Shown: in pieces, positions 17,152 to 39,130 of the stretch
How positions within the stretch are numbered: position 1 is the first letter of the stretch
How the letters are laid out: each line of letters starts with the position of its first letter
NCBI RefSeq assembly: GCF_000172555.1
Contig: NZ_ABOX02000052.1
Location: 1-53,453 of the forward strand
Direction of reading: 5' to 3'
DNA length: 53,453 bases
DNA from: Pedosphaera parvula Ellin514
GTDB lineage: Bacteria > Verrucomicrobiota > Verrucomicrobiia > Limisphaerales > Pedosphaeraceae
Position numbers and translations under genes: made by a program
The notes under the pieces: generated by a model
What the model was told of the DNA's origin: nothing
Seen by the model: only the letters and a program-made list of their open reading frames with translations
The model's database searches: none

Positions 17152-17213
17152 GCGCGCAGTGTTACCAAAATTCCGGCAAACGCAAATTTTTTTTGCGTAT
17201 CAATAAAGAAAAA

Positions 17214-17239
17214 GCCCTCGCCGGAACTCCGACGAGGGC
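17214..17239 (-). terminator. Intrinsic terminator with T-rich flanks on both strands
   Basis: GCCCTCGCCGG (17214-17224) and CCGACGAGGGC (17229-17239) form an 11-base stem with one mismatch and the tetraloop AACT. On the minus strand it is followed by TTTTTCTTT, directly downstream of the fatty acid hydroxylase gene, which is its likely target; on the plus strand ATTTTTATT follows. Confidence 0.8.
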
Positions 17240-17265
17240 AGGATTTTTATTCGTTAAATCAACAA

Positions 17266-28832: not shown

Positions 28833-31800
28833 TCACGGTTGCGTGAGCCGATAGAAACGAATTGGAGAGTTCGTAGCCGTGGCATCGTTAAATATAAACA
28901 ACCCATTTGTCCCGGCCAACAGGTTGGTGAGATTCATCCAGTTCGTCAGATCGGTCGAAGTCTGGAGCGTATAGCTCAAACCTGCGCCGCCACTAAACTG
29001 AAGTTGAAAACTGCCGTTGCCTTGCTGACCAAAGCCGGTCGCTTGCGGCGGCGCCAGCAAGGTAAACGTCATGTCGCCACTACTGTTCGTGCCCACACTA
29101 TTGGTTGCCACCAACTGATAATGATAGGTTTTTCCCGCCAACAAATTGCTTAGTCCTGAATCAAACGACCATAATGTCGTGCCTCCACCCAGATTCGTCA
29201 CACTCGTGCTGCTGTCGTAATTCGTGCTCTGCCCATACTGAAAATAGGCAATTGTGACGGCCCCATTCGGATTGACCGCTCCATGCAGACTGACCGTCGA
29301 ATGCGCAATGCTGTCGGCAGTGGCATTGGTCACTACTGGAACATCTGCCAGATTTGTGAAACTCATGTCTGCCCCCATGACTAGGCCGAAACTGTTCGAA
29401 GCCACCACCCGGAAGTGATTGGTTGTGCCTGGCAGCAGTCCGGCAATCAGATTGCTGACCGATAGCGAATTCGTGCCGCCACCGATACTCGTTGCCACCG
29501 TGCTCTTCGTATAATTGGTATCCGACCCGTATTGGAATGAGTATACCGTGACAGTTCCGTTCGGATTCACGCTGGCATTAAGCAAGGCGCTGGCCACAGT
29601 AATTGTGCTGGCCGGTTGCGTTGTGACCACAGGCAAGCCCGCCTGTCGCGTAACTGTGAGGGTATAAATCTTGGAACTCGTCCCATCTTGAGCGGCGACC
29701 AGAATCGAAATCGTGTTGGTCCCGACATTAAGACCAAGCGCGCCGCTGGATGCTTCGGAACTCACCGGAGAGTAGCTGCCGCCATTGACCCGTACCTGGA
29801 CTGTGGCATAAACACTGTCAGAGCAGGTCGGCGTCACTGTCAGACTGCCGACGCTGTTGGGAACAGCGAGGCTGTAACCAGTCACGCTGGAACTGAAGGG
29901 CGGATTGAGCCCCCCACTGCTGCATGCCAGGTTTGCGAGATTGGCATTAGTATTTAAGGATCGAGTAAAGTTCACGGGATAGACGACGGTGGCAAATCCG
30001 CTCTGAGCAGTCACTGCGAGCACGTGGGAGCTATTGCCAAAAGGCAACGGGATCAACCCGCTCGGCACACCAGAGGTCAAAGGAACTCCATCCAGTTCCA
30101 AGGTGGCATAGGGATTGTTGGCTGTTGCCGTGAGAGTGGTGTTGCTGGCCGCAGTAGGAAACTGTCCCGAATACGTGCCGACATTGAACGTCAAGACCGT
30201 TCCACTTGCGGTAACACTGGACAAGGTTGCATCGTCGCTGAGTAGCCGCAAAACATTAAGTGTGTAAGTTTGGGTATTCTGTCTATTCGGGGAAGTGATT
30301 TGAATAGGTATTAGGTTCGCGCCAAAGTTTAGTGTCACCCGGTTGCTAATCATGCTGGAAACTGGCGCGCTGAACGCTCCGCCGTTCGTTTGCACCTGTA
30401 GGAGTGCATGCGGGTCCTTGGTGACAGCTACGTAATCCGCGTTGCTCACAGAATTCGCCACCGTGCTCACATAGGAAAATATTGACGGGCTAAATGACGG
30501 AATCAATGAACCGGGGTTGACGGTCAGGCTGGAAAGCGTGGCATTGGTGCCTATGCCAAACGTCAGGTCCCCGCTGCTGCTGGGACCTGCCTGGTTCAGC
30601 GCCACGAGTTCGAAATGATACATGCCGGTATCCAGAAAACCGTTCTGAATATTTCCGGTCGTCCAGTCAGGATTGTTCAATATGTTTCCGGTTTTCCCAT
30701 TTCCACTGGCGTCCACGGCATTCGTCCCCGGCCAGTCATCCAAATGATAACACGCCACCAATCCGGAATTTGTGCCCGAAAGGCTCCGATTCATGTTCTG
30801 CTGGATTTGACTTGGAGTGCGAGCCACGTTCCAAAGGCGCACCTCATCGAGGCTGCCAGGAAAGAAATTGGTCAGCGTCGCCAGACAGCCAAACGTTAGA
30901 TTCGTGGCCCCGTTCAAAGTCGCCGTGCTGCCATTCGTGGAGGCCGTCAACACTCCATCAATGTAGAGTGCCATCGCGCCGTTGGTTTGTACCCGCGTCG
31001 CTGCCACATGATGCCAATTACCGTCCAGCAACTGCCCGCTGGAGATCGTAGTATCCGGTCCTCCCACCCCAAAAAGGACTTTTCCATTGCCAACAGAGAC
31101 GCCGAAGTCGCCAGTGGCTCCGGGGACGTAGCCATCCACCAGGCCCAACCCTTGATACCATTGTCCTTCCATCAAGCTCGTCACCCGCGGATACAAAAAC
31201 CAAAACTCGATTGTAAAATCGTTGGAGATGGTCGCAGGAACTTTTACATATTGATTCCCACCATTGAACGAAAGCGCCGCGCCCCGATTTGTTTCCAGAC
31301 TGCACTCGTATAGATCCATGCTTCCTTCTGGGAAGATATCCTCCAGCATGGCCAGACTTCCGTAGTTGGTGGTGGCGCCGTATCTAACATAGGCCGTGGT
31401 ATCCCCAAAGTAGCGGCCTATCTGCGAAGCGAAAGTTACAGAATTATTTGTCCCTATTGCCGCCTGTGCGCCCATTATGCTCGGCCATCCAACAACCGTA
31501 ATCGTCACCGTATTGGTAAAATTCCGCGTGCCATCACTCATTGTGTACGTGAATGCATCCAGGCAGGAATAGATATTTGGCTGGTACGTGCGGTTGGGGC
31601 CACTGCCGCTAAGGGTGCCGTTAGTCGGCCCCGCAATGACCGTAAAACTGTAATTAGTCCCGAGAACGCCTGGGAATGAACTAAGCGTGACCGGAGTGAT
31701 GGTGTTCGCCAACCCAATTATCGACTGGTTCCAGGCTGTAGGCTGATACATCTGGAATGAATAACGGCCTGGCACCGGCGGGGACACGTTCGAATTGTGG

Positions 31801-33716
31801 ATCAAACCATTCGGGGAAGTATCCACCAGATTGGCCGTCCCGGAGCCGGGGAAATTGTAGTAGTTCAAACCATCACCCCGATCAAATCCTACTGATGGAT
31901 AGGTTCCCAGACTGGCTGTGCCATTGAGCCATTGAATTTTTTCGTAATTGAATTCGACGTCGAAATTGCCCACCTGCACGTCAGAGCGGTCGATTAGAAT
32001 CACCTGAAAACTGTTGGTGTTGGTTGTGTTCTGATAGGTCATGACATTGGTCCAAGTGACGCCGACTGCCAATCGGCCCCCGATATATTGCATCCCATAA
32101 GTCATCACTCCGGAACGGGTATCCATGGTGTACACATCAGCCCAATAGGGAGCAAGCATGGGACCATTCGTCGTCGTCGGAAACGCCGTTCCAATATAAT
32201 TGGGATTCGCGCTCTTAAAGGTGAGATTGCCATTGTTGTTGGCATAAAACTGCGTGAAATAGTTGGTGGGAAATTTGTTGTTCGAAAACTGCAGCAATAA
32301 ATCGCGCCCCAGCCAGTCGGAATTGGTGCCCGTTAAACTCACCGGAAACGATTGGTCATCCGCCCTTCCAAAAGAGAACTTGTCGAATCCGGGGCGAATA
32401 GCCCCAACGTTAGTCGCCACGACAATGCTCACTGTTCCAACATTCGTTGAATCCAGCGCCCCATCATTCACCTTAAAAGTGAAACTATCCGTACCGAGGT
32501 AATTATTGGTTGGAGTGTACATAAAGAATGGAGGAGTTGCAACCAATGTGCCATGGGATGGATTGCTCAGAATCGTATAAGTAAGGTTCGGTATGACCGG
32601 GCTATAGTGATACCCCTTGTGATTGGGATCGGCATAATTGGTAAGATCAGCATGGGGATCCAATGCATCCGCATCATCATCACCCGTCAAATATCCGTTG
32701 TAAGGTGTGTTTGTCAGCACTTTGATCGATTGAGTCTGGGCATGCGGAGCATGGTTGATATTGGTCGACAGCACGCTGATGCTCACCGTGGCCTCCGCCG
32801 AAGTGTTCGCTCCATTGCTCACCGTAAAGGTGAAACTGTCCTGACCACTGAATGTGGCAGGCATATTTGGCAGATATTGGCATTTGCCGGTGTTTGTGGT
32901 GTAAATGCCCCCGGCCAGATTGGTGACAATTGTCCCAAACTGGGGCGACCGCATGAGGGTGTAGGTCAATGGTGCGGCTCCGGCTCCCGCAAGTTGTATG
33001 GTGGGCGGATTGGTGTTCCCTGCATTCCAGAAAACTGCCTGCGGATATGCCGTAAGCACGGGCGCCTGCATTGAAACCATCACATTCGTGCCGATGGTTA
33101 CCCCCAAGCTATTGCTGGCCACAATGCGATAGTAAAGAGTGAATGGATTTCCAGTCAGACCGCTAAGCTTGTTTGTGACCAAATACGACGTGGCACCGGC
33201 ACTCAGATTGGTAATGGCAGTCTGGTTCGTGTAATCTGTGGTCTGCCCATACTGGAAATAAACCTTTGTTGCCGCTCCGATCGGCGTCACAAAACCATTT
33301 AAAATGACACTGCTGGAACTGATCACATTGGCCGGCAGCGTCGTCGCAACCGGACCGTTGATGGTGAAGGTCAAATCATTCCCCGTGGCAACGCCCGCGC
33401 TGTCAATGGCCATGATGCGATAATGATACGTTCCCGGTGCCATTCCATTTACGGTGATATAAACATTTTGTGAGCCGGGTGGATTGAAATATTGGCTGCT
33501 GGTGAAGCTGCCGTAATTCAAATCGGTGCCATATTCAAAATAAGCCCTCGTGCTGGACGTGAGGCCGCTAACGACGCCGGATAAGTACACAGTACTGCCC
33601 GAGCTCAAAGCAGAGGCGGTTACGACTCCCGCTCCAACCGCCGTGCTTGGACCTGTGAACCAGCACAATAAGGCAAGTGCCACCACCATTACTTTGAATA
33701 AAAACCTGGACTTCAT
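28833..33716 (-). CDS. Giant secreted mosaic protein with FN3-like, nidogen-like, LamG and cadherin-like domains
   Basis: A roughly 1627-residue exported protein; ATG 33716 (MKSRFLFKVMVVALALLCWF) is preferred over GTG 33737. Domains in order: two FN3-like YFEYG/YFQYG repeats (about 35-215); cadherin-like/tandem-95 modules with YTPTNNYLGTDSFTFKVNDG; a nidogen-type domain about 440-650 (APYWADVY, AVGVTWTNVMTYQNTTNTN, FQVILIDRSDVQVGNFDVEF, GFDRGDG); a further Ig-like region; a LamG domain (ALSFNGGNQYVKVPATISN, FTIEFWFLYP); three cadherin-like beta sandwich repeats (LSSLTVNPGSLIPSFSPSIF); two more FN3-like units; and a C-terminal module SYTLQTSTDLTNW ... RFYRLTQP. No transmembrane anchor or LPXTG-like signal. 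Probably an extracellular adhesion or matrix protein. It precedes the NHL gene on the same strand. Confidence 0.88.
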   Translation of the reverse strand: MKSRFLFKVMVVALALLCWFTGPSTAVGAGVVTASALSSGSTVYLSGVVSGLTSSTRAYFEYGTDLNYGSFTSSQYFNPPGSQNVYITVNGMAPGTYHYRIMAIDSAGVATGNDLTFTINGPVATTLPANVISSSSVILNGFVTPIGAATKVYFQYGQTTDYTNQTAITNLSAGATSYLVTNKLSGLTGNPFTLYYRIVASNSLGVTIGTNVMVSMQAPVLTAYPQAVFWNAGNTNPPTIQLAGAGAAPLTYTLMRSPQFGTIVTNLAGGIYTTNTGKCQYLPNMPATFSGQDSFTFTVSNGANTSAEATVSISVLSTNINHAPHAQTQSIKVLTNTPYNGYLTGDDDADALDPHADLTNYADPNHKGYHYSPVIPNLTYTILSNPSHGTLVATPPFFMYTPTNNYLGTDSFTFKVNDGALDSTNVGTVSIVVATNVGAIRPGFDKFSFGRADDQSFPVSLTGTNSDWLGRDLLLQFSNNKFPTNYFTQFYANNNGNLTFKSANPNYIGTAFPTTTNGPMLAPYWADVYTMDTRSGVMTYGMQYIGGRLAVGVTWTNVMTYQNTTNTNSFQVILIDRSDVQVGNFDVEFNYEKIQWLNGTASLGTYPSVGFDRGDGLNYYNFPGSGTANLVDTSPNGLIHNSNVSPPVPGRYSFQMYQPTAWNQSIIGLANTITPVTLSSFPGVLGTNYSFTVIAGPTNGTLSGSGPNRTYQPNIYSCLDAFTYTMSDGTRNFTNTVTITVVGWPSIMGAQAAIGTNNSVTFASQIGRYFGDTTAYVRYGATTNYGSLAMLEDIFPEGSMDLYECSLETNRGAALSFNGGNQYVKVPATISNDFTIEFWFLYPRVTSLMEGQWYQGLGLVDGYVPGATGDFGVSVGNGKVLFGVGGPDTTISSGQLLDGNWHHVAATRVQTNGAMALYIDGVLTASTNGSTATLNGATNLTFGCLATLTNFFPGSLDEVRLWNVARTPSQIQQNMNRSLSGTNSGLVACYHLDDWPGTNAVDASGNGKTGNILNNPDWTTGNIQNGFLDTGMYHFELVALNQAGPSSSGDLTFGIGTNATLSSLTVNPGSLIPSFSPSIFSYVSTVANSVSNADYVAVTKDPHALLQVQTNGGAFSAPVSSMISNRVTLNFGANLIPIQITSPNRQNTQTYTLNVLRLLSDDATLSSVTASGTVLTFNVGTYSGQFPTAASNTTLTATANNPYATLELDGVPLTSGVPSGLIPLPFGNSSHVLAVTAQSGFATVVYPVNFTRSLNTNANLANLACSSGGLNPPFSSSVTGYSLAVPNSVGSLTVTPTCSDSVYATVQVRVNGGSYSPVSSEASSGALGLNVGTNTISILVAAQDGTSSKIYTLTVTRQAGLPVVTTQPASTITVASALLNASVNPNGTVTVYSFQYGSDTNYTKSTVATSIGGGTNSLSVSNLIAGLLPGTTNHFRVVASNSFGLVMGADMSFTNLADVPVVTNATADSIAHSTVSLHGAVNPNGAVTIAYFQYGQSTNYDSSTSVTNLGGGTTLWSFDSGLSNLLAGKTYHYQLVATNSVGTNSSGDMTFTLLAPPQATGFGQQGNGSFQLQFSGGAGLSYTLQTSTDLTNWMNLTNLLAGTNGLFIFNDATATNSPIRFYRLTQP

Positions 33717-34090
33717 TTTGTTCTTAATCGATCTCACAATTCATTTCTTACTCACCCGGAAATTAACAGCGTCCTCACTTCTGATAATCCGAGGAAATTG
33801 TGTATAAAACTGAGACAATGATTTGGCTGGGAAGAATGGGGAACGCTTCCAAGACTTGCTCGGGTCAAAGAAGAAAAAGAAACCAAAATCAAAGCAAACC
33901 GAATCGATGGCGGAGCGTCGATAGCCTTTGACAGTGGACAAACTCGGAAATCGAGCTTGGCCTCTTGCAGTTCGGATTCAGCTTCCCTTTGCATTAGTCC
34001 GGCTGAAACAGCAAGAGTTAAGCCAAACTACTTACCTCAGAATTTCAATAATTCTTTGAAAATCAGCAGTATTCCATTCCTTTCGCCGGG

Positions 34091-34118
34091 TTGCGAATTC
34101 GAGGATCAGTGGTATACT
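34091..34118 (+). promoter_or_regulatory. Sigma-70-type promoter for the candidate structured RNA
   Basis: TTGCGA (34091-34096) and TATACT (34113-34118) are separated by 16 bases, a good -35/-10 pair. The expected transcription start, about 6-8 bases after the -10, falls at 34124-34126, exactly where the closing stem of the candidate RNA begins. Confidence 0.55.
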
Positions 34119-34123
34119 TTAAT

Positions 34124-34283
34124 TGGTTAAAGACTCTCCTCGAGTCCGAGGTTAAAAATCGGGGAGTTTACCTGAAAAGGTAAACCAGGGATAAAAGCCT
34201 GGAACCAAGGATTCGAGTGGTTGCCACAACGTAAAGTGAAAGGTTGTTACCCGACTGGCAACATGGGCCTTTAACCATTTTTT
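34124..34283 (+). ncRNA. Candidate stand-alone structured RNA of unknown family
   Basis: A 160-base segment that folds as a closed, branched RNA. The ends pair perfectly: TGGTTAAAG (34124-34132) with CTTTAACCA (34269-34277), followed at once by TTTTTT (34278-34283), as in an intrinsic end. Inside are GTTTACC/GGTAAAC (34166-34172, 34179-34185), CCAGG/CCTGG (34185-34189, 34198-34202) and GTTGCCA/TGGCAAC (34220-34226, 34256-34262) with an inner CAAC/GTTG (34227-34230, 34243-34246). The left side has two exclusive options: a local helix CTCCTCGA/TCGGGGAG (34136-34143, 34159-34166), or long-range CTCGAGTCC/GGATTCGAG (34139-34147, 34209-34217). It does not look like tmRNA, RNase P, SRP RNA or a simple 6S rod, nor like riboswitches I know. 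It is 170 bases upstream of the next gene, so a free small RNA is more likely than a leader. Confidence 0.55.
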
Positions 34284-34421
34284 GTGCCTGTGCGTTGCTG
34301 TAGGCGGGCTCTCTCACCGTCTCGGCATTCTTTAACATTTAAGCTTATCCACCTCGGCTGACCGGACGAAAACACCTCCCTTGACCGTCTCCAACTATCA
34401 GCGATTTGTTAAATAAAGAGA

Positions 34422-34440
34422 GGAGCTGGATACCAGCTCC
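34422..34440 (+). promoter_or_regulatory. Perfect hairpin directly upstream of the DUF4105 start
   Basis: GGAGCTGG (34422-34429) and CCAGCTCC (34433-34440) form a perfect 8-base stem with an ATA loop, ending 12 bases before ATG 34453. The only Shine-Dalgarno-like sequence (GAGAGGAG, 34418-34425) runs into its 5' arm, so folding would affect ribosome access or bring the site closer to the start. Translational control is an inference. Confidence 0.45.
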
Positions 34441-34452
34441 AATCAACACCTC

Positions 34453-35493
34453 ATGGCGTCCACCGAATCGCGCCCCATTAAGATTCTCGCGGCTTGGTTA
34501 TTCAAGACGCTACGCTGGCTGTTGATTGGGCTCGGAATCATTCTTCGAGTTCTGCTCGTAGTGTGGGCCACTCTGGCAATTTACTATTCAAATCTCCCCT
34601 GGGCCTGGCTGCGACTCGTGCTGGCCATCGTCTTCATGGTCTTCAGTATTTGGGCCTTATGGTTCTCACGCAAACCGCGTATGTACCTGGCCTTCGCGGC
34701 ACTATTTCTTGTCGTGCTCATTTGGTACATCTACATCCCTCCATCGCACGATCGCCCATGGCAACCGGAAGTGGCCGTGATGCCCCGGGCCTTTATCAAC
34801 GGCGATCATGTGCGCATTACCGGAGTCCGTCATTTTGACTATCGCACCAAAGATGATTTCACAGTGCACTACGATGAACGCGATGTATCGCTCTCCCATC
34901 TGACTTCGGTGGATCTCTTCCTCTCCTACTGGACGGTGGGACCGATAGGGCACACCTTCGTGAGCTTTAACTTCGACAACGCGCCTCCCATCTGCATCTC
35001 CATCGAAACCAGGCCGAAGCTCGGTCAGGGCTATTCCCCCATCGCCTCGCTCTTTAAACAATACGAGTTGATCTACGTCGTGGGTGATGAACGCGACCTC
35101 GTGCGTCTCCGCACTCATTTCCGTGACGAGGAAGTTTATCTTTACCACATCCGCATGCCGCCCGAAAAGGCGCGCGCACTTTTTCTAGTTTATCTGGATC
35201 GGATCAATCAACTTGCTGACCACGCAGAATTTTACCATCTGTTGAGTAACAGTTGCACGATCAACATCGTACGCTACGCAAATGCAGTGGGCAGGGAAGG
35301 CCGCCTCGATATCCGCCAGGTCCTTAATGGCCTCTTTGACCGCTATCTCTACAGAACAGGCCGTGTAGACACGAGCTTGCCCTTTGCAGAACTGCGCAAG
35401 CGTTCCCGAATCAACGATGTCGCAGAGGCTACCGATAACTCTCCCGACTTCTCCCAACGCATTCGCATCTCTCTGCCTCCATCACAACCCTGA
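34453..35493 (+). CDS. DUF4105 (Lnb N-terminal-domain-like) membrane protein
   Basis: A 346-residue protein with three N-terminal transmembrane helices (about 20-42, 48-69 and 75-93) and a periplasmic C-terminal DUF4105 domain. This domain is the catalytic part of Lnb, the lipoprotein intramolecular transacylase of some Firmicutes, and is also found in many Gram-negatives without known role. The expected Cys and His are present: H167 in TVGPIGHTFVSFNF and C268 in HLLSNSCTINIVRYA, together with an acidic residue in CISIETRPK. A cysteine-based acyl transfer or thiol hydrolase-like activity is therefore plausible, but lipoprotein remodelling is not shown in this phylum. It is convergent with thiE. 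The start ATG 34453 is preceded by a hairpin rather than by a free Shine-Dalgarno site. Confidence 0.82.
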   Translation: MASTESRPIKILAAWLFKTLRWLLIGLGIILRVLLVVWATLAIYYSNLPWAWLRLVLAIVFMVFSIWALWFSRKPRMYLAFAALFLVVLIWYIYIPPSHDRPWQPEVAVMPRAFINGDHVRITGVRHFDYRTKDDFTVHYDERDVSLSHLTSVDLFLSYWTVGPIGHTFVSFNFDNAPPICISIETRPKLGQGYSPIASLFKQYELIYVVGDERDLVRLRTHFRDEEVYLYHIRMPPEKARALFLVYLDRINQLADHAEFYHLLSNSCTINIVRYANAVGREGRLDIRQVLNGLFDRYLYRTGRVDTSLPFAELRKRSRINDVAEATDNSPDFSQRIRISLPPSQP

Positions 35494-35538: not shown

Positions 35539-36177
35539 TCAAGTGATCCGCGCCTTAAACTCCCCGCAGGCCTTTGCAATATCAGGAGCGTTCAAAATAG
35601 CTGAAACCACACAAATCCGTTGCGCGCCCGCAGCCAGTACCTGATCCAGATTGGTAAGATTGATTCCCCCAATCGCAAACCACGGGATCTTCACATTTGC
35701 CGCCGCCCACCGTACGTAATCCAGCGTGACCGGCTTGGCCGTTGGTTTGGTGCCCGTCGCGTAAATCGGGCCAATCGCGATATATCCCGGTCCTGCCGCA
35801 ATCGCGCGCTCAGCCTGGGCCGGTGCATGCGTGCTCAAACCAATTTCCACATTCGATTTCCCATCCTTTAGTTGCGAAACGTGCGTGTACCCACCATCAA
35901 AAAAATCCTCCTGCCCCAAATGGCAAACCTCAGCTCCCACTTCTATCGCCACTGAAAGAAAATCATTAATCACCAGCGGAACTCCTGCCCTGCGGGTGAT
36001 TGGAAGAATTGCTTCCGCCATCCTCCGCACTTCATTCTCAGCCGAGTTCTTCGCCCGCAATTGAATTATGTCCGATCCACCGTCGCATAATTGTTGTGCC
36101 ACCACCTCCGGCTTACGCCCATGTAGGTAGGCAGTATCCACAAACGTATAAAGACGGCAGTCAGACAACGATTTCAT
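35539..36177 (-). CDS. thiE: Thiamine phosphate synthase
   Basis: ThiE joins the thiazole phosphate and hydroxymethylpyrimidine pyrophosphate halves of thiamine phosphate in the cytoplasm. The frame extends to TTG 36228, but ATG 36177 (MKSLSDCRLYTFVDTAYLHG) gives the normal family start and 212 residues. TIM-barrel signatures are seen: DIIQLRAKNS (pyrophosphate site), PLVINDFLSVAIEVGAEVCHLGQEDF, GLSTHAPAQAERAIAAGPGYIAIGPIY, and WFAIGGINLTNLDQVLAAGAQRICVVSAI near the phosphate-binding end. The usual TPTK after GPIF is ATGTKPTAKP here, an acceptable variant. No other thiamine gene is next to it and no TPP riboswitch is visible upstream; it could also be a ThiE-like (TenI) paralogue. Confidence 0.85.
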   Translation of the reverse strand: MKSLSDCRLYTFVDTAYLHGRKPEVVAQQLCDGGSDIIQLRAKNSAENEVRRMAEAILPITRRAGVPLVINDFLSVAIEVGAEVCHLGQEDFFDGGYTHVSQLKDGKSNVEIGLSTHAPAQAERAIAAGPGYIAIGPIYATGTKPTAKPVTLDYVRWAAANVKIPWFAIGGINLTNLDQVLAAGAQRICVVSAILNAPDIAKACGEFKARIT

Positions 36178-36316
36178 ATTCGTGAAGAATCTTGTAACCG
36201 TAACCACCCCCTTCGCGCAATCAGACAAGTTGTTACACGACCGTATTCCTACATGTTACCAAGTGCTTCTTAATCTGCGCCCATTTGTGTCCATCTGCTG
36301 TTGAATTCCCCTCGCC

Positions 36317-37354
36317 TCACCGCGTCTTCTCAAACAAAAGTTTCCACAACCAATCCCATCTCGGCACCACCGATACCAACGCCCCTTGCAACCCCGGCGC
36401 CAGCAAAACGGACTGCACTCGCGCAGCCCAGGCCAGGCGTTTCGCAAACCGTTCATCACAACATCTGGCAATCGTCATTCGCGCTTCATCCCAGGAAATT
36501 TTTCCCGCGCTGAAATTTGCCAACGGCTCAATGGCCACCTCCGCCGATTCAAAAGCCATCGACATGCCATTGCCCGTCACCGGCGGAATCATTGTCAACG
36601 TATCACCGATACAACACTCGTTATGATCCGCACCCTTGTGCGGTTGCAGTGAAAGTCCCGCCACGGAAGAAAAGGACTTCTCATCGAACACAGCGTTCGC
36701 CAGACGCTGATGCAGAAGCGAGCCTGGATTGCCGCATAAAATCTCCTGTCGCCGCAGCGGAACCTCTCCCCCCTCCGCGGGACGTCTAAACAATCCACAG
36801 ACATTCACTTCACCACCCGCCAGGCGGCAAACCCCAACATATCCCGACCGCGAAAGATGCATCTCCAAATCAGCCGCCAGTGACACGTTTTTCGCATGCG
36901 CCTTCAACCCATACCACCGCCAACCATCAACCACCGGTTGCACCCTCCGTCCGGTCGCTCGCACAACACCCGCACCGAACTCCGCATCACGCCACCGCTC
37001 ACCGGCATGCAACTCTCCGCCCAATCTCACGAACTCGCGCGACAACAGTTCATCCATGACATACCGCGACAAACATAGCGCTGGAGATGCGAGTGTCTGG
37101 ACCCGAGACGATTTACGCTGTGAGAAAAATGCGGCGGTGGAAGCCGGTTGCGCCCCGGCTTTGACAAAAAGTTCGCGCAGGCCAAGACGCTCCAACGTTT
37201 CCTGCCCGTGACCACTGATAAATTCTCCACATACCCTGTGCCGCGGATAATTCCCCGCCTCCCAGACAGAGACTGGAATGGACCGTTGTCGCAGGCCGAT
37301 GCCCAGCGTCAAACCGGCCAATCCACCTCCCACAATGGTAATGGAGCCACTCAT
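36317..37354 (-). CDS. FAD-dependent oxidoreductase of the type III PKS operon (geranylgeranyl-reductase-like)
   Basis: The start is ATG 37352-37354, overlapping the upstream methyltransferase stop by one base (TGATG) with GGAAG before it, so translation is coupled. The 345-residue flavoprotein begins MSGSITIVGGGLAGLTLGIG (GxGxxG at 9-14, binding the FAD ADP part), then VWEAGNYPRHRVCGEFISG with the RxCGE motif of the geranylgeranyl-reductase/halogenase-like group, and the second FAD motif CCIGDTLTMIPPVTGNGMSMA. It probably oxidises or hydroxylates the aromatic product of the polyketide synthase, or reduces an isoprenoid-like chain; the reaction is not determined. The context (PKS, methyltransferase, then this gene) recurs in Planctomycetes, Verrucomicrobia and other bacteria. 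Confidence 0.85.
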   Translation of the reverse strand: MSGSITIVGGGLAGLTLGIGLRQRSIPVSVWEAGNYPRHRVCGEFISGHGQETLERLGLRELFVKAGAQPASTAAFFSQRKSSRVQTLASPALCLSRYVMDELLSREFVRLGGELHAGERWRDAEFGAGVVRATGRRVQPVVDGWRWYGLKAHAKNVSLAADLEMHLSRSGYVGVCRLAGGEVNVCGLFRRPAEGGEVPLRRQEILCGNPGSLLHQRLANAVFDEKSFSSVAGLSLQPHKGADHNECCIGDTLTMIPPVTGNGMSMAFESAEVAIEPLANFSAGKISWDEARMTIARCCDERFAKRLAWAARVQSVLLAPGLQGALVSVVPRWDWLWKLLFEKTR

Positions 37355-38070
37355 CACTTCCGATGAGCAACGAATAGATGACTGAACATCCCTGCCCGCT
37401 GCTCCTGCAACATCCAATTGCCCTGCGTAGGCCACATCTCAGAAAGTTCACGTTTCATGAATCCGGCCCGCACACTCACCACGGCATCATGCCGGGTTAC
37501 CGAGTTGCACGCAATCGCCCCCACCCACTTGGCTGCCGTCAGGGACAACTTGCTCCGATGCGGCTCACAAGCTGCAAAGAGATCCACCTGTTTGGAAGCC
37601 AGTTGAAACATTTCGCATAACTCCGCTTCATGGAAATGATGCAGGAATAAATTAGCCGTGAAAACTGTTCCCTGTTCCATGGTTCCCTGACGTTGTGCCA
37701 ACCAATCAAAAATATCCGCAGCGACGGTTTCCACCTTACAGCCCAATTTCTGGAACTGGACTTGCACCTTCTCACTTACCACCGGTTGCCGATCCAGCAG
37801 TACGATATGCAGCCTGGGTTGGTATTTCACCAATTCCCTGGCCAGCCCCAGGGCGAAAACTCCATCGCCTGCGCCGAGGTCGACGATTCGTTGCAACGGC
37901 TTGTTCTTCCAATAGCGCATCAAGGCATGAGCCAGAATCGAACGATGCCCCATCCACCAGTTCAGCCATTTCAAGTCGCGACGCGACCTTATTGCCTTGG
38001 GATCATCCGGCGGCAACTCATCCAGTAATTCAGGCTCCAGCGCGCGCTCCACACGTAAAATTGTATCCAA
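37354..38070 (-). CDS. SAM-dependent class I methyltransferase of the type III PKS operon
   Basis: A methyltransferase of about 238 residues. The start is placed at TTG 38068-38070, right after the PKS stop, with GGAAG 9 bases upstream inside the PKS end; the open frame continues to 38178 but overlaps the PKS coding sequence, and GTG 38052 is another option. Motif I is RIVDLGAGDGVFALGLARE (SAM binding), then IVLLDRQPVV (motif II acidic end) and TANLFLHHFHEAEL (post-motif). An N-terminal helical part includes KSRRDLKWLNWWMGHR-like RSRRDLKWLNWWMGHRSIL. It probably methylates the polyketide product, either on a phenolic oxygen or on carbon. Its stop overlaps the next start by one base. Confidence 0.82.
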   Translation of the reverse strand: MDTILRVERALEPELLDELPPDDPKAIRSRRDLKWLNWWMGHRSILAHALMRYWKNKPLQRIVDLGAGDGVFALGLARELVKYQPRLHIVLLDRQPVVSEKVQVQFQKLGCKVETVAADIFDWLAQRQGTMEQGTVFTANLFLHHFHEAELCEMFQLASKQVDLFAACEPHRSKLSLTAAKWVGAIACNSVTRHDAVVSVRAGFMKRELSEMWPTQGNWMLQEQRAGMFSHLFVAHRK

Positions 38071-38071
38071 A

Positions 38072-39130
38072 TCAGGAAACTTCCAACAGTGCCCCGTGAC
38101 AACTAAAACCCGCCCCAAAGGAACACATCCACCACACCCCTCCCCCTGCCTGCTCTGCCAGGGCATTCTGCAGCGCAAAGTACACGCATGGGCTGCTCAT
38201 ATTCCCATACTCCCGCAGCACTTCGGCGCTCCAGCGTGTGTCCATTGTGGAGAGTCCCAATTTCTCTTGTAAGGCGAGCAGCACATCACGCCCGCCCGCA
38301 TGCCAGATCCAATTCTTAATTTCGCCGCGTGTAACACCGGCACGGGCGAGCGTCTCCCGGAGCAGTTTATCTGCATTTTCCGCAGCCAGCATTGGCACTT
38401 CTGGTCGCAGCACGTTACGCAACATGCCATGGACCATCTCGAACCGTAGAAATTCGCGGTCCTTCGCCGCCAGCATGGTATTGCAAACCTTCCATTCAAT
38501 CCGGCGATTATTCGGGTTCGGCTCGTTCGATAATACTGCCGCCCCCGACCCATCTCCAAATAGACAAGCACTGATCAGCACTCCCGGATCATCATCAATA
38601 AACATCGCCGCACTGCATACTTCCACACAGATGGAAAGCACGCGCCGGCTTCGCCCTGATGCCAGCAATGCTTCTCCCGCGCGCATGTTTGGCAGTGCCG
38701 CACCGCAACCTTGCCCGACCAGGTCGAGCGCAAAAACGTCTGGTTTCAGCCCCAATTTCTCACTCACATAACTGGTTAACCCGGGACAAATATAACCTGT
38801 GCAGGTGCTGATGATAACGGCATCGATTTCGCGGCGGTCGGTTTGGGAGTTTTTCAGCGCTTCTTCAGCTGCTTCAGCGGCCAACTGCGGAGCATGCCTG
38901 GCGAATCGCTGGTGCAGGATATCAGGATTAATCTCAAAAGCCTCATGCAGGGAACTCAAGGCCAGGTGACGGGTTTCCACGCCATTATTTCCAGTCAGAA
39001 CTTTGCGAAGAATGGCCTTTGAACGCGAAGTGAGTTGCGTAAACTGGACCGTTTGTTGCACCGTTTCCCAACCCTCACTCTGCTTATAGCGTTGACGAGG
39101 CGCAGCAGTCCCTATTCCCGTGATGAACAT
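38072..39130 (-). CDS. Type III polyketide synthase (chalcone/alkylresorcinol synthase-like)
   Basis: A 352-residue homodimeric thiolase-fold synthase. Type III PKSs load an acyl-CoA on a cysteine, extend it with malonyl-CoA and cyclise the chain to resorcinols, pyrones or phloroglucinols. The catalytic triad is complete: C142 (DLVGQGCGAALPNM), H277 (WIWHAGGRDVL) and N310 (EYGNMSSPCVYF). The family GFGPG loop near the C-terminus is represented by FGAGFSCHG. An unusual N-terminal part reads MFITGIGTAAPRQRYKQSEG. The methyltransferase and flavoprotein genes follow without gaps, a compact tailoring operon. A long-chain alkylresorcinol-type or small aromatic membrane lipid is the likeliest product, but the starter cannot be predicted. 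Confidence 0.92.
   Translation of the reverse strand: MFITGIGTAAPRQRYKQSEGWETVQQTVQFTQLTSRSKAILRKVLTGNNGVETRHLALSSLHEAFEINPDILHQRFARHAPQLAAEAAEEALKNSQTDRREIDAVIISTCTGYICPGLTSYVSEKLGLKPDVFALDLVGQGCGAALPNMRAGEALLASGRSRRVLSICVEVCSAAMFIDDDPGVLISACLFGDGSGAAVLSNEPNPNNRRIEWKVCNTMLAAKDREFLRFEMVHGMLRNVLRPEVPMLAAENADKLLRETLARAGVTRGEIKNWIWHAGGRDVLLALQEKLGLSTMDTRWSAEVLREYGNMSSPCVYFALQNALAEQAGGGVWWMCSFGAGFSCHGALLEVS

Follow-up and report, generated by a model that had tools for sequence, protein, structure and literature searches.

The intergenic segment 34124-34283 on the plus strand of the window (the whole stretch of 53,453 nucleotides analysed here, one of the 102 contigs, C52, of a 7,410,698-base genome) is predicted to fold into a branched RNA of 160 bases. 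Its branched domain is clearly unusual, in contrast to the promoter-like site, the T6 end and the right arm. This segment, located between a minus-strand gene and a plus-strand gene, can be read, tentatively and as our first choice, as a gene for a stand-alone small non-coding RNA that is confined to the species or to a narrow lineage. The initial annotation had gone further, describing a new structured small RNA with its own promoter and poly-T end. That description, partly supported, exceeds the evidence because the promoter-like site is at chance level, there is no local hairpin ahead of T6, the proposed pseudoknot is implausible, and no relative has been found. Its observation is largely right; its interpretation is supported only in part.

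The small-RNA reading is favoured by the predicted fold, which is not random. The minimum free energy (MFE) of 34124-34290 is -57 kcal/mol (z -3.68), a value reached by none of 200 dinucleotide shuffles, and 34124-34283 itself gives a z of -4.87 (0 of 300 dinucleotide shuffles as good). The domain 34139-34217 reaches a z of -5.91 (0 of 300), a score that is flattered by the fact that the borders of the domain were picked after seeing the fold. Taken together, everything inside the closing stem scores lower (z -2.83; matched by 2 of 300 shuffles), and the right arm (34218-34264; z -0.98, matched by 47 of 300) does not stand out from its shuffles. The fold thus beats shuffled sequence mainly through the end stem and the three-way-junction domain.

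The fold has also been compared with the rest of the genome, using overlapping ORF-free windows taken from 453,453 bases that include the window itself. In the run with 166-nt windows the candidate has a z of -4.19, which is reached by 7 of 728 windows. In the run with 79-nt windows the z of the domain is -6.51, and only three of 3064 ORF-free windows score as well, all of them predicted to be single hairpins. The domain is therefore within the top 4 of the 3065 windows scored, itself counted, and is more stable than its shuffles and than nearly all of the ORF-free DNA sampled.

All the pairings listed in the initial annotation exist where it had placed them. The three-way-junction domain (34139-34217, plus strand, as are all the helices described here) has helix probabilities of 0.87-1.0. 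It comprises a 9-bp helix with one G-U pair (34139-34147/34209-34217), a 4-bp helix (34150-34153/34203-34206), an 8-bp hairpin with a GAAA loop (34166-34185; pair probabilities 0.42-0.90), and a 4-bp hairpin with the loop GATAAAAG (34186-34201). The four pairs of the latter have a probability of 0.98, and a flanking C-G pair (34185/34202), which would be the fifth of this hairpin, has a probability of 0.57. At full length, the pairs of the 9-bp helix, of the 4-bp helix and of the closing stem have probabilities of 0.76-1.0. The right arm (34220-34262) consists of GTTGCC/GGCAAC plus ACAAC/GTTGT, and is the site where the pseudoknot had been proposed.

An alternative 8-bp hairpin, also with one G-U pair, can be drawn at 34136-34143/34159-34166. 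The 8-bp and 9-bp helices are mutually exclusive, as had been noticed, since 34139-34143 is common to both, but the switching that had been attached to them is not borne out at full length, where the fold with the 8-bp helix is 7 kcal/mol worse than the best one (-50.0 against -57.0) and the probability of this helix is 0.00. In prefixes of 43, 60 and 80 nt no fold is better than the one with the 8-bp hairpin, and at 94 nt the 9-bp helix is already ahead (-33.0 against -30.2 kcal/mol). These calculations suggest that the 8-bp hairpin would be at most a transient folding intermediate, formed early and then displaced, and not one arm of a balanced switch. The pseudoknot fares worse. The pairings CAAC/GTTG and GTAA/TTAC would leave 0 nt between their 5' strands and 0 nt between their 3' strands, and are therefore judged sterically implausible as crossing pairs; with two of the three loops of zero length, and with probabilities of 0.69 for CAAC/GTTG and only 0.03-0.04 for the second stem GTAA/TTAC, the pseudoknot as written is rejected.

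The ends of the candidate are paired and followed by a T-run, in agreement with the initial annotation. The 5' arm TGGTTAAAG (34124-34132; pair probabilities 0.76-1.0) and the 3' arm CTTTAACCA (34269-34277) form a closing stem of 9 bp, which continues inwards with 34134-34136 paired to 34265-34267 (pair probabilities 0.94-0.96), and T6 (34278-34283) comes directly after the 3' arm. Upstream, a promoter-like TTGCGA-16-TATACT is found on the same strand at 34091-34118, with TTGCGA at 34091-34096, TATACT at 34113-34118 and a TG preceding the -10. This site holds 9 of 12 consensus bases and is compatible with a start near 34124, so that the stem begins at the start which the promoter predicts. The agreement of the stem, the predicted start and T6 after the closing stem, together with the lack of any plus-strand ORF of at least 20 amino acids wholly within 34124-34283, favours a small RNA. 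Against it, one promoter-like site was found where 0.7 are expected from shuffles of the region, which is the level of chance; the promoter claimed at the outset is thus present as a sequence and is not distinguished from background.

The poly-T end has a similar standing. In an intrinsic terminator a local hairpin is followed by a U-run; here T6 is present and the local hairpin is absent. The terminator scan lists no classical terminator on the plus strand, and folding the last 20-50 nt up to 34277 yields little stability (-2.2 to -9.3 kcal/mol). Termination at this T6 would consequently need a 5' arm that is still free and pairs over 136 nt. A 9-bp stem that spans 60-250 nt and closes just ahead of T6 occurs once among 448 T6 sites, which is about the number that a hand estimate gives for chance. 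The minus strand folds as well (z -3.74; 1 of 300 shuffles as good), and the plus strand is favoured over it by T6 only.

Relatives of the candidate have been sought in several ways. By blastn, 39 of 97 genomes (its own included) gave matches at E <= 1; the non-self ones covered at most 36 bases and had a best E of 0.0188. The matches that seemed to cluster on 34174-34209 were rejected as relatives after 30 loci were searched for this core with at most three mismatches and no shared fold was seen by eye; core hits of this kind fell in L002, L003, L015, L022 and L028. A covariance model (R1) was built from two copies of the same sequence, in effect from a single one, and has a limited reach. 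It was applied, with stricter filters in the larger sets, to 58 genomes of relatives, 320 of the order, 387 of the phylum, 8 of the family and 384 of the class, sets which overlap and each include the genome of origin. Within this limited reach, no relative was found in any of these sets, with none listed at E <= 0.1 among the 387 genomes of the phylum. The six non-self hits that R1 listed (L033, L034, L035, L036, L059 and L122; 12.3-22.4 bits, best per-genome E 0.0017) each fall in a stop-free frame of 354-945 codons, and chance is the best explanation for them. The only genome of the same genus that was searched (G001, 93% complete) gave no match, and both blastn and the covariance model indicate that the candidate is single-copy in its own genome.

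A degenerate pattern of the core, run across genome contigs, yielded 33 stretches, for about 30 expected by a hand estimate of chance. All of them are spanned by a stop-free frame of at least 70 codons and were discarded. The best R1 score on these 33 loci was 14.9 bits, for positions 43-79 only, and an Rfam scan of 19 of them revealed four known elements, none at the site of the pattern. In viral contigs two patterns had 0 matches, and the end-stem pattern had 2 stretches with no R1 match at E <= 10; in phages there was one 24-base match (E 0.9), which lies outside the RNA, and plasmids gave no match. No homologue on which covariation could be counted was found in these searches. Conservation outside close strains, on which the initial annotation had made its reading depend, was not detected as far as the searches reached, and the candidate is therefore at best a small RNA peculiar to its lineage.

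Known families do not account for the segment either; the initial annotation had recognised no tmRNA, RNase P, SRP RNA, 6S RNA or known riboswitch. At gathering score, Rfam matched no family in the whole window, so a hit to a known family, another finding that had been named as refuting the annotation, did not appear. The 6S RNA (RF00013) of this genome has its own locus (G000:C17:65469-65652, 63.9 bits) and does not match here. The small SRP RNA (RF00169) has no match in the window and its own copy on another contig (G000:C40), the RNase P copy lies elsewhere, in L053, and ARAGORN finds neither a tRNA nor a tmRNA in the window. These results favour the small-RNA reading. The candidate resembles 6S RNA in its paired ends and similar length, although 6S RNA is one long hairpin with a central bubble, whereas the candidate is branched.

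Small RNAs that have a structured body and are restricted to one species are a general kind known in bacteria. The candidate shares with them its intergenic position, a length of about 160 nt, a stable predicted fold, a promoter-like start and a terminal U-run; it differs in that its promoter and terminator are putative and its U-run follows a long-range stem and no local hairpin. If the small-RNA reading is right, transcription would start near 34124 and stop in T6 at 34283, and the two ends would pair as the 9-bp stem, protecting the RNA. The three-way junction would display purine-rich single-stranded loops, GATAAAAG and the region around TTAAAAATCGGGGA, which could bind target messages or a protein. 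The expression of this RNA, the position of its ends and whatever it would do in trans are inferred. Should it be transcribed, a sparsely studied bacterial group would gain a further lineage-specific small RNA, whose branched fold would have arisen or been acquired with no relatives left behind in the genomes that were searched.

A serious possibility, which we place a close second, is that the segment is a functionless structured spacer, unselected as RNA, which originated as a chance inverted repeat or as what is left of a mobile element, since lost, that had short terminal inverted repeats (TIRs). In its favour, the searches of other genomes detected no conservation, and both strands fold. 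The closing stem plus T6, about as frequent as the hand estimate of chance, points the same way, as do the imperfect, TIR-like terminal arms of 12 nt (34121-34132/34269-34280). Moreover, 14 of the 728 ORF-free windows of 166 nt (about 2%) are equally non-random, reaching the z of -3.68; if the candidate is not transcribed, it would serve as a reminder of how many windows attain the same fold score. This origin is harder to reconcile with the rank of the branched domain, as the three windows above it are single hairpins. A mobile-element remnant in particular is at odds with the single copy in the genome and with the lack of a target-site duplication by eye.

Less probable, and on balance unlikely, is that the segment forms the start of the downstream gene's message, as a 5' leader or an attenuator in which the long-range stem and T6 would terminate transcription as long as nothing keeps the 5' arm from pairing. 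This gene (34453-35493, plus strand) encodes a protein with an Lnb_N domain (PF13387, E 2.6e-34), lies on the same strand as the candidate and starts 170 bases past T6. Like intrinsic-terminator attenuators in 5' leaders, the candidate combines helices that exclude each other with a U-run and precedes a gene on its own strand. In addition, GGTTAAA occurs twice (34125-34131 and 34150-34156), and the 3' arm TTTAACC therefore has two possible partners. The second of them has a pairing probability of 0.00, though, and the alternative helix carries the cost of 7 kcal/mol given above. The terminator is weak, and in contrast to the known attenuators the stem of the candidate encloses a 136-nt insert. 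Nor was the candidate found at other loci of the same gene family: around 29 Lnb_N loci, taken from the 90 other genomes with the gene, R1 matched nothing at E <= 10.

The distribution of the Lnb_N gene also speaks against a leader. It is matched in 90 of 386 other genomes of the phylum, with a best identity of 55%, and in none of the 39 nearest relatives, which means that the neighbourhood of the gene is not an old one. This patchiness within the group fits a late arrival or a wide loss of the locus, and the gene is probably context and not part of the candidate RNA. Immediately upstream of it there is a perfect 8-bp hairpin, GGAGCTGG-ATA-CCAGCTCC (34422-34440), which ends 12 bases ahead of the start codon at 34453 and is scored as a terminator-like site when read on the minus strand. 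It may hold the ribosome-binding region of the Lnb_N gene or terminate minus-strand transcription. The gene on the other side of the candidate (28833-33737, minus strand) encodes a large protein with Cadherin-like, NIDO and Laminin_G_3 domains.

It is very improbable that the segment represents a new orphan class of RNA, in which a stand-alone 160-nt molecule would use its paired ends in place of a terminator hairpin and its junction would refold, while transcription proceeds, from an early 8-bp hairpin to the long-range 9-bp helix, as a timer or to bind protein. Least probable of all is a divergent Guanidine-I-like (ykkC) riboswitch aptamer in 34128-34206: Guanidine-I (RF00442) was the best of three sub-threshold matches in a permissive Rfam scan of 33750-34460 (711 bases), and both RNAs have the segment GGGAUAAAAGCC after a hairpin, but its 16.8 bits are far below the gathering score of 63 (E 1.8 over the 711 bases and 4.59 over the whole genome), another site in the same genome scores 16.9 bits, the aptamer-like helix 34136-34143/34159-34166 has a probability of 0.00, and no guanidine gene is seen beside the candidate. 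GUCCGAG is presumably a further likeness to the ykkC consensus, and Lnb_N is not known to have any connection with guanidine.

Other features were noticed in the course of this analysis. Very stable ORF-free folds exist elsewhere in the genome, at L049 3842-4007, L039 8583-8661 and L054 5613-5691 (z -6.4 to -8.0), and an Rfam scan of seven 20-kb loci, including those of these three stretches, detected only the RNase P in L053. The window itself holds a second stable ORF-free hairpin region at 17167-17260 (z -5.9 on the minus strand and -5.1 on the plus strand). Finally, a run of minus-strand genes at 36317-39130 resembles a small biosynthetic cluster, its domains being those of type III polyketide synthase (chalcone/stilbene synthase), methyltransferase and FAD-dependent oxidoreductase, and a thiamine-phosphate synthase-like gene (TMP-TENI) is located next to it at 35539-36228.
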